From: an uncultured Gammaproteobacteria bacterium
GTDB taxonomy: Bacteria > Pseudomonadota > Gammaproteobacteria > JAADHQ01
DNA length: 64,000 bases
Assembly: GCA_947258655.1 (NCBI GenBank)
Contig: CAMYJD010000009.1
Span: forward strand, 1 to 64,000
Direction: 5' to 3'
Shown here: positions 59,201 through 63,879 of the stretch, one piece after another
Layout of the letters: each line of letters begins with the position of its first letter
How positions within the stretch are numbered: the first letter of the stretch is position 1
The notes under the pieces: generated by a model
Seen by the model: the letters and a program-made list of their open reading frames with translations, nothing else
What the model was told of the DNA's origin: nothing
Databases searched by the model: none
Translations under genes and position numbers: made by a program

Positions 59201-59442
59201 GCATATCACCGCTGATCTTCTTTGCGACCGGGCAAACCGCGTTCCTGTCGCCGATGGCGGTCAGTCTCGGCTTTGGTCTGTTGTTCGCGACGGTCCTGAT
59301 CCTGGTTGCACTGCCTTGTTTTTATCTGATTGCTGACGACTTCCGAGCCTGGATGTGTGCTCATGTTCGGCGTATATTCCATAAACCGGAGCGGACCGAT
59401 GAAGATAATGCCTATTGTTTATTGAAGGAAGAAGATGAGTGA
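56254..59442 (+). CDS. RND efflux transporter permease
   Basis: A 1062-residue inner-membrane, proton-driven pump of the HAE/AcrB-like group, with about 12 TM segments and two large periplasmic loops. Visible features: SINNSLIVNLLLAFILLAG (TM1), MFPVIDKDVVRITAVYEGAP, the TM4 region FAFLIALGMIVDDAIIVNEN with the Asp pair of the proton relay, and GLLALSGIVVNDSLILVDFAKR. The C-terminal membrane block ends ALPCFYLIADDFRAWMC. The substrate cannot be inferred. It overlaps amgK by 8 bp. Confidence 0.93.
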   Translation: MPLIRFSINNSLIVNLLLAFILLAGVLSWYAMPQEMFPVIDKDVVRITAVYEGAPPEEVERQVTLPIEEAFDGMSDIDVIQSTSNEGLASVLIKLKPGSDVDDFMQDGRNQIDQITDLPDDVDTPELVRLETRFPVISLALYGDVTRSYLYDLAEEVKRDLQLLPGAASVGVAGKREWELWVSVDPHKLVASRVSLEQVIAAIRDNLRDIPGGAIKALEGDILLRGIGVQPEAQQIEKIALHSNENGGQLQLGAVAKIERRLEEANTLGRFNGRSSVNLTVNKSSSASTIELSQHVRDYVAKLEQRLPPSIQVGLFNDTSVFVKTRLETVKSSGMVGLILVLVSLYLFLNFRVALITALGIPVSFLVAVIMLYYLGYTINMVSLFAFLIALGMIVDDAIIVNENIYRHMEMGMRTRQAAQVGAREVFWPVMASTTTTIAAFLPMFAITGTMGAFIAVIPVVVTASLLGSLFEAFAVLPSHAADILKVSEKKRDTRIPWAKWLVHYTGFLRKALHYRYLISAVTICVLLITVTYAQTRLPFHLFGHVDTGQFFINLEAPNTYSLDDSTRLAAKVEDVVLEEMDDSELRTILTNVGITFIDFNRFRFGTHYIQLMIDLEKRKPEGFIERFVSPIVSMKFNWEGTRETPTADIIKRLRERIEAIPGLQRISILRPQGGPGGSDIEIGVEGHDVTALRRHADSVRDYLRRLPGVYDVRHDMDPGKLEIQYSLNDRGRELGLTQAQISNVIRTGYLGQEVVYVTAREQRMPVRLIYTDPVRHSSALGELPITLPGGNTVYLGDVADISIGRGLNTINRRDLQRLATVTAEVDAAVTTPLEVNALVEKEFADFAEQNPGYQLLALGEKKEAGDSFKDMKRAGIISLAIIFFILSSLFRSLLDPLVVMFAIPFGLIGVVIGHALFDYNLQFLSLIGLLALSGIVVNDSLILVDFAKRMRAEGMNRIDAMVEAGRVRVRPIMLTSITTFLGISPLIFFATGQTAFLSPMAVSLGFGLLFATVLILVALPCFYLIADDFRAWMCAHVRRIFHKPERTDEDNAYCLLKEEDE

Positions 59443-60439
59443 AAGCAGTGTGAGTGACAAACGTATTGAGGCCATGCATGCGTGGCTGACGTCGATCCTG
59501 GGGCACAGTGACTATCAATTGAACATCGCCTCGGGTGATGCCAGTTTTCGTCGCTATTTCCGTGTGCAGGTCGGAGATGAATCATGGATCGTCATGGATG
59601 CCCCGCCGGCCAGGGAAGACTGCGGGCCATTCATCGGCATATCGGCGGCGCTGTCAAAGCTCGGCCTGCATATGCCCGAAGTCCTGCAACAGGACCTGGA
59701 GCAGGGTTTTCTGTTGTTGACGGACCTGGGTCAGCAACAATATTTACAGGTTCTTGATCAAGGCAATGTCGATCGCCTCTATGGCGATGCACTCGCCGTG
59801 CTCGCCACGCTACAGGCCGGCGCCGCGACGCATTATGATTTTCCACCCTATGATGATGCGTTGTTGATGACAGAAATGAATCTGTTTCGCGACTGGCTGC
59901 TGGACCGACATCTGGGCATCGATCTGCAGCAACAGCACAGCGATATGCTCGAACAGACATTCAGGTTTCTGTCTGCATCGGCGCGTGAACAACCGCAGGT
60001 ACCGGTGCATCGTGATTATCACTCCCGCAACCTGATGTATTATCCGGCGCACAATCCGGGCATCCTCGATTTTCAGGATGCCGTGTTGGGCCCGGTCACC
60101 TATGACCTGGTATCGCTGTTGCGCGACTGTTATATCGCCTGGCCGCGCGAGCGGGTCGAGGCATGGGTCAGCGGCTACCATGAGCTGGCGCTGCAATCCG
60201 GCATCCTGCGCGAACAAAACGAGGCACAATTCCTGCGCTGGTTTGACCTGATGGGTGTGCAGCGCCATCTGAAGGCCGCCGGTATCTTTGCGCGCCTGTG
60301 TCATCGCGATCACAAACCGGGTTACCTGCAGGATATCCCGCGTACCGTAGCCTACATCATCGACGTCAGCAGCCGCTATCCCGAATTACAGGACCTGCAC
60401 CGCTTCCTCAATGCTGTCCATGATTGGAGTCGTGTATAA
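59435..60439 (+). CDS. amgK: N-acetylmuramate/N-acetylglucosamine kinase
   Basis: A 334-residue aminoglycoside-phosphotransferase-fold kinase of the AmgK family. In Pseudomonas putida AmgK phosphorylates MurNAc at the anomeric position in a peptidoglycan recycling route that bypasses de novo UDP-MurNAc synthesis. Motifs: GDASFRRYFRV near the N-terminus, VPVHRDYHSRNLMYY (catalytic HxD...N), and GILDFQDAVLGPVTYDL (metal Asp). It is paired with murU next to lptD, the same partners as in Pseudomonas. It begins within the last codons of the RND gene. Confidence 0.92.
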   Translation: MSESSVSDKRIEAMHAWLTSILGHSDYQLNIASGDASFRRYFRVQVGDESWIVMDAPPAREDCGPFIGISAALSKLGLHMPEVLQQDLEQGFLLLTDLGQQQYLQVLDQGNVDRLYGDALAVLATLQAGAATHYDFPPYDDALLMTEMNLFRDWLLDRHLGIDLQQQHSDMLEQTFRFLSASAREQPQVPVHRDYHSRNLMYYPAHNPGILDFQDAVLGPVTYDLVSLLRDCYIAWPRERVEAWVSGYHELALQSGILREQNEAQFLRWFDLMGVQRHLKAAGIFARLCHRDHKPGYLQDIPRTVAYIIDVSSRYPELQDLHRFLNAVHDWSRV

Positions 60440-60507: not shown

Positions 60508-61185
60508 ATGAAAGCCATGATACTGGCCGCTGGCCGCGGTGAGCGCCTGCGTCCCCTGACAGATACAATGCCCAAGCCGTTGATCCATGTCGGCAAGTAC
60601 CGTCTGATCGAATGGCATATCCACAGGCTGGCCGAGGCCGGCATCAACGACATCGTCATCAACCTGTCGCACCTCGGTGACATGATCCGCGCCGAACTCG
60701 GCACAGGTGAATGTTATGGAGTCGCTATCCGTTATTCGCAGGAGCCGCAACCGCCACTGGAGACCGGCGGCGGTATTGTACAGGCACTGGAGCTGCTGGG
60801 CACGGAGCCGTTTATTGTCGTCAATGGCGATATCTGGACCGATTACCCGTTCACGCAATTACAGGCGCCGCAAGGGCTTGCCCATCTGGTCATGGTCGAC
60901 AATCCTGCGCATAATCCCGACGGTGATTTTGTATTGCAGGATTCACGGCTCAAGGACGATGGGCAAGGACAACGCTATACATTCAGCGGTATCGGTGTAT
61001 ACCGGCCTGAGTTGTTTACCGATTCCGGGCCTGGCCGATTCCCGCTCGCACCGTTGCTAAGACAGGCCATGCACAATGAGCAGGTTACGGGTGAGTATTA
61101 CCGCGGACACTGGTACGATATAGGTACGCAGGAACGTCTGCGTGACATGCGCCAATTCGTCATGCAGCAACAGACCGAACAATAA
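60508..61185 (+). CDS. murU: N-acetylmuramate-alpha-1-phosphate uridylyltransferase
   Basis: A 225-residue nucleotidyltransferase that couples MurNAc-1-phosphate with UTP to UDP-MurNAc, the step after AmgK in the recycling bypass. The nucleotide-binding loop is ILAAGRGERLRPLTDTMPKP. Other features: LIEWHIHRLAEAGINDIVIN, LETGGGIVQALELLG, and VVNGDIWTDYP (metal Asp). The start at 60508 is the family start; longer in-frame starts are unsupported. It lies 68 bp downstream of amgK. Confidence 0.95.
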   Translation: MKAMILAAGRGERLRPLTDTMPKPLIHVGKYRLIEWHIHRLAEAGINDIVINLSHLGDMIRAELGTGECYGVAIRYSQEPQPPLETGGGIVQALELLGTEPFIVVNGDIWTDYPFTQLQAPQGLAHLVMVDNPAHNPDGDFVLQDSRLKDDGQGQRYTFSGIGVYRPELFTDSGPGRFPLAPLLRQAMHNEQVTGEYYRGHWYDIGTQERLRDMRQFVMQQQTEQ

Positions 61186-61201: not shown

Positions 61202-62647
61202 ATGGGACAGGAAATAGACACCATTCATTTTACCGAACAGGATTTCTGCGACTACCGCGAGCATCTGGCGGATGAAACCGCACTGTTGTCCGACTGGTTC
61301 GAGCAGAACAAGCTGGCTGCACATGCGAATGTCGGCGGCTTCGAACTGGAGGTATGGATCGTCGACCAGAACTATAACCCGATCCCGATCAACGATGCCT
61401 ATCTGCGCAGCCTGAACAGTGACTGGGTATCACCGGAACTGTCGCGCTTTAACATTGAACTGAATGGCGATCCGGAGCCCTTGCAGGGCAGGGCATTATC
61501 GCGCCTGCAGAACTCGTTGCAGCAGAGCTGGCAGCATTGCTACCAGGTGGCAGAGGATTTCGATGCCGCGTTGGTCATGATCGGCACATTGCCGAGTGTG
61601 CGTGAAGAGCAAATGGTGCTGGAAAACATGTCGCGCATGAAACGCTACTACGCGCTGAATGAGCAGGTCCTGCTGCAACGCCAGGGCAAGCCGTTGAGCC
61701 TGGATATTGTCGGCCACGAACACCTGCAGACGACCCATTACGATGTCATGCTCGAATCGGCAACGACATCGTTCCAGGTACACTGGCAGGTGCCGATAGC
61801 CGAGGCGCTCAGGGCCTATAATGCCAGTGTCATTGCCTCGGCGGCGACCGTTGCCGTGTCCGCCAATTCCCCCTATCTGTTCGGCAAGGAACTGTGGGAT
61901 GAGACCCGGGTGCCGTTGTTCGAGCAATCGGTCCAGGTTGGCGGCATAGACGGCGCCGCGTTCGGTCCTGTACGTCGTGTCGGTTTCGGTTCGGACTATG
62001 CGCGCCAGTCCATGCACGAACTGTTTCAGGAAAACTGCGAACATTATCCGGTACTATTACCGATTACATTTGACTCCGGGGCGGAGGAGATGAATTATCT
62101 GCGCCTGCATAATGGCACAATCTGGCGTTGGAACCGTCCGTTGATCGGCTTCGATCAGGCAGGGGACCCGCATCTGCGTATCGAGCACCGGGTCATATCG
62201 GCAGGACCGACTGTGGTCGATTGTATCGCCAATGCCGCGTTTTATTATGGACTGGCGCGTTACCTGTCGCAGTTGGCCGATGCCCCCGAGACGCTATTAC
62301 CATTTGTAACTGCACGCGATAATTTCTATGCCTGTGCCAAGCATAGTCTCAATGCGCGCGTGACCTGGCTGGACGGGCGCAAGGGCACGATGAAACAATT
62401 ACTGCAACAGCAACTGATTCCGGCTGCACAACAGGGTCTGCTTGAGCTCGGGCTCGATCAGGGTGACATCGATCTGTACATGGGTATTATTCGCGCTCGT
62501 GTCGACAGTGGCCAACACGGTGCACACTGGCAACGCCAATACGTACACAAATATCAGTGTGATATGCAGGCGCTGACCGCTGCCTATGCCGCGCGTCAGC
62601 AAAGTGGTGAACCGGTGCATACCTGGTCCATCCATAACGGAAAATAG
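61202..62647 (+). CDS. GCS2-type glutamate-cysteine ligase-like enzyme
   Basis: A 481-residue protein of the GCS2 (YbdK-like carboxylate-amine ligase/glutamate-cysteine ligase) superfamily. Visible motifs: NVGGFELEVWIVDQNYNPIP (metal-binding Glu), SRFNIELNGDP, MLESATTSFQVHWQVP (substrate pocket), IEHRVISAGPTVVD. It forms an amide between glutamate (or another acid) and an amine. The reaction could be the gamma-glutamylcysteine step of glutathione synthesis or another gamma-glutamylation. It is tightly followed (8 bp) by an M14-type deacylase. The closest biochemical role is unknown. Confidence 0.8.
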   Translation: MGQEIDTIHFTEQDFCDYREHLADETALLSDWFEQNKLAAHANVGGFELEVWIVDQNYNPIPINDAYLRSLNSDWVSPELSRFNIELNGDPEPLQGRALSRLQNSLQQSWQHCYQVAEDFDAALVMIGTLPSVREEQMVLENMSRMKRYYALNEQVLLQRQGKPLSLDIVGHEHLQTTHYDVMLESATTSFQVHWQVPIAEALRAYNASVIASAATVAVSANSPYLFGKELWDETRVPLFEQSVQVGGIDGAAFGPVRRVGFGSDYARQSMHELFQENCEHYPVLLPITFDSGAEEMNYLRLHNGTIWRWNRPLIGFDQAGDPHLRIEHRVISAGPTVVDCIANAAFYYGLARYLSQLADAPETLLPFVTARDNFYACAKHSLNARVTWLDGRKGTMKQLLQQQLIPAAQQGLLELGLDQGDIDLYMGIIRARVDSGQHGAHWQRQYVHKYQCDMQALTAAYAARQQSGEPVHTWSIHNGK

Positions 62648-62654
62648 AATAGTA

Positions 62655-63671
62655 ATGTTAAAGATAATAGAACATATACCCGAGGGTTTCATCGATACGG
62701 ACGCAACCCGCCTGTGCGAAGTCATGCCGCAGCCGACATTGATCCATCTACAGGGCCGCCGTCCGGAACCCTTGTTTGTGTCGGTATTACTACATGGCAA
62801 CGAGGTCACCGGACTGCATGCGATCCAGGACCTGTTGCGCAAGTACCGGGAGCAGGAACTGCCACGTTCAGTGTCGATTTTTGTCGGGAATGTCACGGCC
62901 GCCGAACACGGACAACGGCGCCTGCAGGGTCAGCCCGATTATAACCGCGTGTGGCCGGGTGGCGATCAGACCGATGTGCCCGAAGCGCAGATGATGGAGG
63001 AAGTGGTCGCCGATATGCGCAGGCGCAATATTTTTGCCAGTATCGACATCCATAACAATACCGGTATCAATCCGCATTACGCCTGCGTTAATGTCATCGA
63101 TGACCGCTTCTTTCACCTGGCCACGCTGTTCAGTCGCACCGTGGTCTATTTTACCAACCCTACTGGTGTGCAATCGGCGGCCTTCGCACCTATATGTCCG
63201 GCCGTAACGGTCGAATGCGGCAAGGTCGGACAAAAATATTCCGACCAGCATGCGATGGAGTTCATCGATGCGGCCCTGCACCTGTCCGAGATCCCAACCC
63301 ACGGTTTTCCATCACATGACATCGACCTGTTTCATACCATCGCCATCGTCAAGGTACCCGCCGAAGCCAATTTCAGTTTCAATGGTGATGACTGCGAGAT
63401 CTGTTTCGACAGCGACATCGATCACATGAACTTTCGTGAACTGGATATGGGCACGCGCCTGGGGCGGGTATGCAGCAATAACCCGGCGCACCTCGAGGCC
63501 TGGGACAATGACGGCAACAATATCGGTGACGAGGTCTTTAGCTATGATGACAACGAGATCCAGACCCGCAAAGCGGTCATGCCGTCGATGCTGACATTGA
63601 ACGAGCGCGTGATTCGCCAGGATTGCCTGTGTTACCTGATGGAACGTTACCGGATTGGTGATGCAGGCTGA
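62655..63671 (+). CDS. M14-family succinylglutamate desuccinylase/aspartoacylase-like protein
   Basis: A 338-residue zinc amidohydrolase of the AstE/ASPA subfamily. Zinc ligands are visible: LLHGNEVTG (H47, E50) and SIDIHNNTG (H133). The Arg-binding DYNRVWPGG segment is present, and the catalytic Glu is in AVTVECGKVGQ. Members cleave N-acyl amino acids such as N-acetylaspartate or N-succinylglutamate. There are no other ast arginine-succinyltransferase genes nearby. It is coupled to the GCS2-like gene, suggesting a common metabolite is formed and hydrolysed. The start at 62655 gives the conserved N-terminus. Confidence 0.8.
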   Translation: MLKIIEHIPEGFIDTDATRLCEVMPQPTLIHLQGRRPEPLFVSVLLHGNEVTGLHAIQDLLRKYREQELPRSVSIFVGNVTAAEHGQRRLQGQPDYNRVWPGGDQTDVPEAQMMEEVVADMRRRNIFASIDIHNNTGINPHYACVNVIDDRFFHLATLFSRTVVYFTNPTGVQSAAFAPICPAVTVECGKVGQKYSDQHAMEFIDAALHLSEIPTHGFPSHDIDLFHTIAIVKVPAEANFSFNGDDCEICFDSDIDHMNFRELDMGTRLGRVCSNNPAHLEAWDNDGNNIGDEVFSYDDNEIQTRKAVMPSMLTLNERVIRQDCLCYLMERYRIGDAG

Positions 63672-63707: not shown

Positions 63708-63879
63708 GATTTTGGCCAGGAAGGCCTTATTGCCGTTTAATAATTTTCAAACGATTGGCACGATGTTCGCGAAGGCCACGGAAGGCCGAGAGCGATTTTG
63801 GCCAGGAAGGCCTTATTGCCGTTTAACAATTTTCAAACGATTGGCACGATGTTCGCGAAGGCCACGGAAGGCCGAGAGC
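63708..63879. repeat. 86-bp tandem duplication
   Basis: Two adjacent copies (63708-63793 and 63794-63879) begin GATTTTGGCCAGGAAGG and end GGAAGGCCGAGAGC, with a single base difference seen (TAATAA versus TAACAA). Each unit holds several GGCC-centred words (GGCCAGGAAGGCC; GAAGGCCACGGAAGGCC), so it could form hairpins. It lies directly after the M14 gene, in non-coding DNA. Confidence 0.9.

Follow-up and report, generated by a model that had tools for sequence, protein, structure and literature searches.

A conserved gene pair for a GCS2-fold ligase and an M14 amidohydrolase: a candidate module for a gamma-glutamyl-type conjugate

The closest described relatives of the two enzymes considered here are, for the ligase, Escherichia coli YbdK, the GCL enzymes of plants and yeast and EgtA, and for the hydrolase, AstE and aspartoacylase/aminoacylase 3. 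Enzymes of the AstE/AspA type normally deacylate N-acyl amino acids, and in its chemistry the gamma-glutamyl group resembles the succinyl group taken off by AstE. Iyer, Burroughs and Aravind (2008; PMC2588565) associated GCS2-type ligases with hydrolases and peptidases, and describe one uncharacterized ligase family fused to a transglutaminase-like domain and another whose partner is either a glutamine-amidotransferase-like peptidase or else a gamma-glutamyl cyclotransferase; the partners named in those passages of the paper are not M14 enzymes. Both superfamilies, and the idea of ligase-peptidase neighborhoods, are therefore already known, and the pairing studied here is undescribed in the literature searched. 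A 2009 follow-up to that survey reportedly covers amidoligase-peptidase neighborhoods. In the library that we searched, no paper on a GCS2-M14 pair was found.

We have studied such a pair in a window of 64,000 nucleotides from an uncultured gammaproteobacterium; the window is the whole stretch of DNA that was analyzed. The features of the locus are as follows.

59435-60439, + strand: AmgK-like sugar kinase (NF045759, 282 bits, E 4.5e-84, under the model's cut-off of 550)
60508-61185, + strand: MurU, N-acetylmuramate-1-phosphate uridylyltransferase (NF045761, 311.5 bits, cut-off 250)
61202-62647, + strand: GCS2-fold carboxylate-amine ligase, 481 amino acids (P0002; PF04107), ATG at 61202 and stop codon ending at 62647
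61337-61351, + strand: GxExE motif, residues 46-50 of the ligase, with G46, E48 and E50 in 147 of 147 sequences
62655-63671, + strand: M14 zinc amidohydrolase of the AstE/AspA type, 338 amino acids (P0001; PF24827), ATG at 62655 and stop codon ending at 63671
62793-62804, + strand: zinc motif HxxE in the M14 enzyme (residues 47-50), with H47 and E50 in 112 of 112 sequences

The order on the + strand is thus AmgK-like kinase, MurU, ligase and M14 gene. The start of MurU was taken from its family match (60508-61155) and the end is that of the open reading frame at 61185, leaving 16 bp before the ligase. A periplasmic adaptor of the RND type and its pump, the latter recognized by eye, lie further upstream on the strand of the pair. 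An earlier sequence-only reading had placed a GCS2 ligase and an M14 hydrolase at these positions, with which both the open reading frames and the Pfam families agree; it had given their spacing as 8 bp, which we correct to the 7 bases (62648-62654) between the ligase stop codon and the M14 ATG. The genome of the window (G000) contains a single match to the ligase. Beginning 37 bases past the M14 stop codon, an 86-base unit is present in two head-to-tail copies that are 99% identical (63708-63879).

The ligase scores 37.2 bits against the Pfam GCS2 family PF04107, over the curated cut-off of 21. Searched against NCBIfam it matched no family at E 0.001, and at E 0.01 it matched only NF010041, with 16.1 of the 332 bits required. 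The YbdK (TIGR02050) and EgtA (TIGR03444) families were absent from its NCBIfam matches, so that it stays under both cut-offs; EgtA was matched weakly by 5 of 26 members of the ligase-family alignment, with a best E of 0.0011. No PDB match was obtained with the single ligase sequence, and a profile search of the PDB gave weak, unrelated matches only. The structure is predicted with confidence (pLDDT 91.7, pTM 0.93), and the model is closest to the YbdK-type structures 1tt4 (Z 36.9 over 345 residues) and 1r8g (Z 36.4 over 344 residues), followed by plant GCL (2gwc, Z 31.7) and yeast GCL (3ig5, Z 28.1, with 464 residues aligned across model residues 1-476). Twelve positions are invariant in 147 ligase sequences, namely G46, E48, E50, E86, Q192, N222, P224, R312, R326, E328, R330 and D340, and H194 is present in 145 of them. 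In the passage concerned, GxExE is given as the Mg/ATP-site signature of GCS2 and related ligases (PMC2588565). As none of the curated ligase models of NCBIfam scores over its cut-off, the assignment of glutamate as donor rests on fold and motifs.

The resemblance to YbdK thus lies in the fold and in the motifs GxExE, QxH, SP and ExR, which by eye recur in that protein. Sequence identity to YbdK is however 15%, the window ligase is longer (481 against 372 amino acids) with extra conserved segments, and the ligase profile matches YbdK marginally, over 115 columns only. Similarly, the fold is common to the plant and yeast GCL enzymes and EgtA, but identity to the two GCL enzymes is 15-18%, and most carriers of the ligase own another gshA. 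At the N-terminus, residue 2 is glycine in 143 of 144 aligned sequences (Met-Gly at 61202-61207 of the window), a count from trimmed alignments that favor matches at the ends; the following 40 or so residues are variable. The yeast enzyme also aligns from the N-terminus of the ligase.

The M14 enzyme is assigned to AstE_AspA_cat (PF24827) with 45.5 bits, over the curated cut-off of 25. A profile search of the PDB identified AstE (1yw6, E 2.3e-11) and also aspartoacylases, and Foldseek with the predicted structure (pLDDT 94.2, pTM 0.91) gave AstE (1yw4, E 1.1e-13); the MpaA-type structure 4axv was a distant match in both sequence-profile and structure searches. Residues H47, E50, R88, D95, N97, R98 and H133 are kept in 112 of 112 sequences, and E187 in 109 of 109. 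The enzyme therefore shares with AstE and aspartoacylase/aminoacylase 3 the PF24827 domain, the zinc ligands and the R..D.NR motif. It falls under both curated cut-offs, however, scoring 22.2 of 170 bits with the AstE model NF003706 and 18.7 of 180 bits with the aspartoacylase model NF002601; the position equivalent to aspartoacylase Arg168 is hydrophobic in the profile alignment. No NCBIfam model is over its cut-off for either protein of the window. Since the models are confident and the catalytic motifs are kept, we expect the ligase and the M14 enzyme both to be catalytically active, and by analogy the M14 enzyme is predicted to act on an amide next to an alpha-carboxylate.

Among 274 genomes of the class, 98 contain both genes, 5 the ligase only, 2 the M14 gene only and 169 neither, taking a match above about 180 bits as an M14 orthologue. 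The Fisher probability for this co-occurrence is P 2e-65, uncorrected for the shared ancestry of the genomes. The co-occurrence and gshA lists, and the MurU, RimK and RimK-M14 counts given below, were compiled by hand from tables. That the pair is a conserved unit, as the sequence-only reading had supposed, is borne out by the 98 of 103 ligase carriers that have an M14 orthologue, and the possibility it had raised against itself, that the M14 gene is not conserved beside the ligase, falls with the same count. Two of the ligase-only genomes are scored as lacking M14 because of the threshold: one has a divergent M14 gene adjoining the ligase (G010, 63.8 bits) and the other a broken M14 fragment (G164). 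Two more (G108 and G182) have distant ligase relatives only, at 36 and 32% identity, and in the fifth (G068, locus L082) the ligase is present and the genome gives no M14 match. The two genomes with M14 only (G093 and G214) belong to one genus. In G093 the M14 gene lies 56 bases from MurU with the ligase missing between them (G093:C324:7601-9267), apparently a clean loss of the ligase; G214 is also without it.

Scanning genome contigs turned up 25 relatives of the ligase, under record titles that name Gammaproteobacteria, Proteobacteria, Alphaproteobacteria (one MAG), Nitrospinaceae (one MAG), Oligoflexia/Halobacteriovoraceae, Chlorobi, Streptomyces, another actinobacterium and Flavobacteria. 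Together with the class genomes these gave a set of 107 ligase loci, the locus of the window and at least two near-duplicates being counted among them. At 91 of the 107, an M14 homologue is present no more than 400 bp downstream (tblastn with the window M14 enzyme as query, E 1e-5). Of the other 16, seven are closer relatives: in three of these the M14 gene is a further 1.7-2.5 kb downstream (L096, L117 and L038), in three it is elsewhere in the genome (L113, L040 and L072), and L082 is the locus of G068, which has none. The remaining nine are distant (31-36% identity), and two of them, both flavobacterial, have a divergent M14 gene directly downstream. No downstream M14 was found at the four Streptomyces loci, where it was absent beside the ligase in 4 of 4 and one genome searched gave no M14 match, nor at one other actinobacterial locus and the class loci L105 and L107.

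The spacing of the two genes is generally tight. Of 123 separate ligase loci for which an M14 match was obtained, 2 are fused, 109 gave a measurable gap and 12 did not. The genes overlap at 15 of the 109 loci; the gap is 0-30 bp at 76, 31-100 bp at 15 and larger at 3. Over 40 loci the distances of ligase and M14 enzyme correlate with r 0.65, whereas the correlations with MurU are 0.42 and 0.47, and the partial correlation given the MurU background is 0.56; it was reached in 0 of 2000 permutations, which also break the relation between M14 and MurU. The coupling of ligase and M14 gene is well supported.

Two genomes, both from the same genus, encode ligase and M14 enzyme in a single open reading frame, of 814 amino acids in G009 and 844 in G273, and in a third genome of that family they are two overlapping genes. 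Both genes can also be retained apart. In G019 they are on one contig at positions 2352220 and 698039, more than 1 Mb from each other. In G064 and G240 they are on different contigs, and the sequence downstream of the ligase is seen to be without M14; in G005 they are again on different contigs, in an assembly too broken to show true separation. Three genomes (G387, G398 and G450; loci L157, L158 and L159, L158 being that of G387) have two copies of the long GCS2 ligase gene in tandem followed by one M14 gene, the first ligase copy being broken or truncated in one of the three (L159).

Outside the class, the pair is also found in Chlorobi, Flavobacteria, Bdellovibrionota and one Nitrospinaceae MAG. 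The ligase is present in 67 of 198 genomes of the phylum of Chlorobaculum, which we take to be Bacteroidota in GTDB, and in 6 of 69 genomes of the phylum of locus L012. Of the 67 carriers we examined 39, comprising the 30 best-scoring and 9 picked. An M14 gene adjoins the ligase in 27 of these (M14 profile, E 1e-5), 22 being seen in short flanks and the three tandem genomes in longer ones, with G333 and G348 making up the number. In the remaining 12 of 39 no M14 was found in the flanks searched (L138, L142, L143, L151, L153, L154, L155, G458, G337, G329, G391 and G301). Either the coupling is looser in this phylum, or the M14 enzyme is too divergent for the profile. The ligases of Chlorobi and Flavobacteria carry C-terminal CBS stretches, two in each of L026 and L173, which suggest that the ligase may be regulated.

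The outer neighbors of the pair are housekeeping genes that differ between groups; in other phyla they include mdh-speD; PriA, ScpB and a Mg-chelatase-like ATPase; and RNase P. The pair stands outside arginine-succinyltransferase and glutathione loci, as had been claimed from sequence. We saw no third gene recurring beside it across phyla among open reading frames of at least 90 amino acids; the layouts omit shorter frames and mask overlapping ones, so that some genes are hidden. The neighbors, which change from phylum to phylum, do not identify the substrate. A conserved open reading frame of about 150-230 amino acids (cluster n13) directly precedes the ligase at five loci (L054, L064, L067, L101 and L113), sometimes lying between MurU and the ligase. 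SpeD with malate dehydrogenase is found upstream at 5 loci and was rejected as a general partner, since these loci come without exception from records of Halobacteriovoraceae, Bacteriovoracaceae or Oligoflexia. Elsewhere in the genome of the window (L028, 20-2553), a protein we take to be DUF1704-like has a second ATP-grasp protein of the gshB-like kind immediately after it; this ATP-grasp protein was also set aside, being found in only 10 of 274 genomes (E 1e-40) and in neither congener.

We also considered ligases of the RimK type, whose co-occurrence with the pair the sequence-only reading had raised. Among 80 genomes chosen for high completeness, RimK passed the TIGR00768 cut-off in 25 of the 40 that carry the pair and in 18 of the 40 that lack the ligase; in neither G000 nor G043 did it do so. 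RimK is thus not a necessary partner. The same genomes contain distant AstE/AspA-like paralogues of the M14 enzyme, and 17 of the 18 weak M14 matches listed adjoin a RimK-type ligase (for example in G061, G126, G242 and G132). Here too an amide ligase adjoins an AstE/AspA-type hydrolase, but the ligase has the ATP-grasp rather than the GCS2 fold and the M14 enzyme is a distant paralogue, with 27-35% local identity in the 17 matches listed. As a related M14 enzyme is found beside a ligase of another fold, the partnership of amide ligase and M14 hydrolase appears as a repeated theme.

The reading we favor, with a probability of about 0.43, is that the pair makes and cuts one gamma-glutamyl-type conjugate. 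Ligase and M14 enzyme would form a self-contained module. In an ATP-dependent reaction, the GCS2-fold ligase would activate a carboxylate (most likely that at the gamma position of glutamate) and join it to an amine; the M14 zinc amidohydrolase would hydrolyze this amide or one much like it. Since the D-x-N-R motif of aspartoacylase and AstE is kept in the M14 enzyme, the amine acceptor probably bears an alpha-carboxylate. By making and removing it, the two activities may set the level of a conjugate other than glutathione. The suggestion made from sequence, that one enzyme makes and the other trims the same conjugate, therefore stands as the best reading, in which we infer the glutamate donor, the acceptor, the shared bond and the physiological role. 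It is supported by the co-occurrence and adjacency of the genes, their fusions, the keeping of both when they are apart and the correlated distances; the catalytic motifs, the folds, the pairing in Chlorobi and Flavobacteria, the tandems and the RimK theme point the same way. Against it count the looser coupling in the phylum of Chlorobaculum, the Streptomyces loci and G068 without M14, and G093 and G214 without the ligase.

The main rival is a forward pathway of two steps, in which the M14 enzyme would either unmask a protected precursor by deacylation or trim what the ligase makes, and the ligase would act on the same intermediate, both enzymes working toward one product. It owes this place to genes that are close, sometimes overlapping and in two genomes fused: an overlap or a gap of at most 30 bp at 91 of the 109 measured loci, together with the one-frame fusions, suggests co-expression, and this is in accord with a forward pathway no less than with making and cutting. 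Tandem ligases with a single M14 gene, and the usual deacylation carried out by AstE/AspA enzymes, are also in keeping with it. Yet two enzymes with no transporter or further enzymes would be an unusually short route, and the layouts supplied no recurrent third gene; we regard a forward pathway as unlikely, though to be taken seriously. The distant structural relationship of the ligase to Dop (Z 18.9) and PafA (Z 18.0) brings in the tagging of a peptide or protein, whereby a ligase of the superfamily of the Pup ligase PafA would glutamylate a target and the M14 enzyme would remove the tag. The M14 paralogues beside RimK could be read likewise, as the RimK family includes protein glutamylation. 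The fold is however much closer to the small-molecule ligases of the YbdK type (1tt4) and the M14 catalytic domain is of the AstE/AspA type, making tagging improbable.

The genes upstream raise a role in peptidoglycan recycling with AmgK and MurU, such as remaking or cleaving the gamma-D-glutamyl bond of muropeptides. MurU is upstream at 47 and AmgK at 40 of 107 ligase loci, and the M14 enzyme MpaA, to which ours is distantly matched, cleaves gamma-D-Glu-mDap. But MurU (E 1e-50) is frequent in carriers and non-carriers of the ligase alike, being present in 94 of 103 and 139 of 171; outside the class the neighbors seen are unrelated ones, and the M14 enzyme resembles AstE/AspA. Given this frequency in both kinds of genome, and the absence of MurU from the neighbors seen in other phyla, AmgK and MurU were set aside as functional partners in the main explanation, and we assign recycling a very low probability. 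It is similarly doubtful, to about the same degree, that the ligase is the organism's own gshA and the M14 gene incidental. The sequence-only reading had named a sole gshA as the finding that would speak against it. This does not hold across the class, where 95 of 103 ligase carriers have a separate canonical gshA (PF08886 or PF04262); among them are both congeners (G043 and G184), each with a PF04262 gshA besides the pair. At the level of the class, the ligase is not simply gshA, and the co-occurrence of M14 with it is a further argument. The genome of the window itself fits less well, in that it has a clear gshB (448 bits) while a search for the PF04262 and PF08886 types found no gshA, and 7 of the other 102 carriers are also without both types (G005, G038, G121, G155, G236, G238 and G266). 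With an assembly of 92 contigs and 98.7% completeness, the missing gene may lie in an assembly gap; such a gap, or another type of gshA, would explain the result, though in this one organism the ligase may conceivably serve as gshA.

The synthesis and hydrolysis of one conjugate thus remains our preferred reading. At somewhat less than even odds, there may be a widespread and undescribed small metabolite, a gamma-glutamyl conjugate distinct from glutathione or another carboxylate-amine conjugate, for which Gammaproteobacteria, Chlorobi, Flavobacteria and Bdellovibrionota possess a dedicated synthase and hydrolase; the system would be CBS-regulated in Flavobacteria-type genomes and independent of gshA, RimK and MurU. 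The ligase is carried by about a third of the genomes sampled, 103 of 274 in the class and 67 of 198 in the phylum of Chlorobaculum. A conserved pair of enzymes of known chemistry offers a direct handle on an unrecognized metabolite, and the natural fusion protein a simple reagent for finding it.
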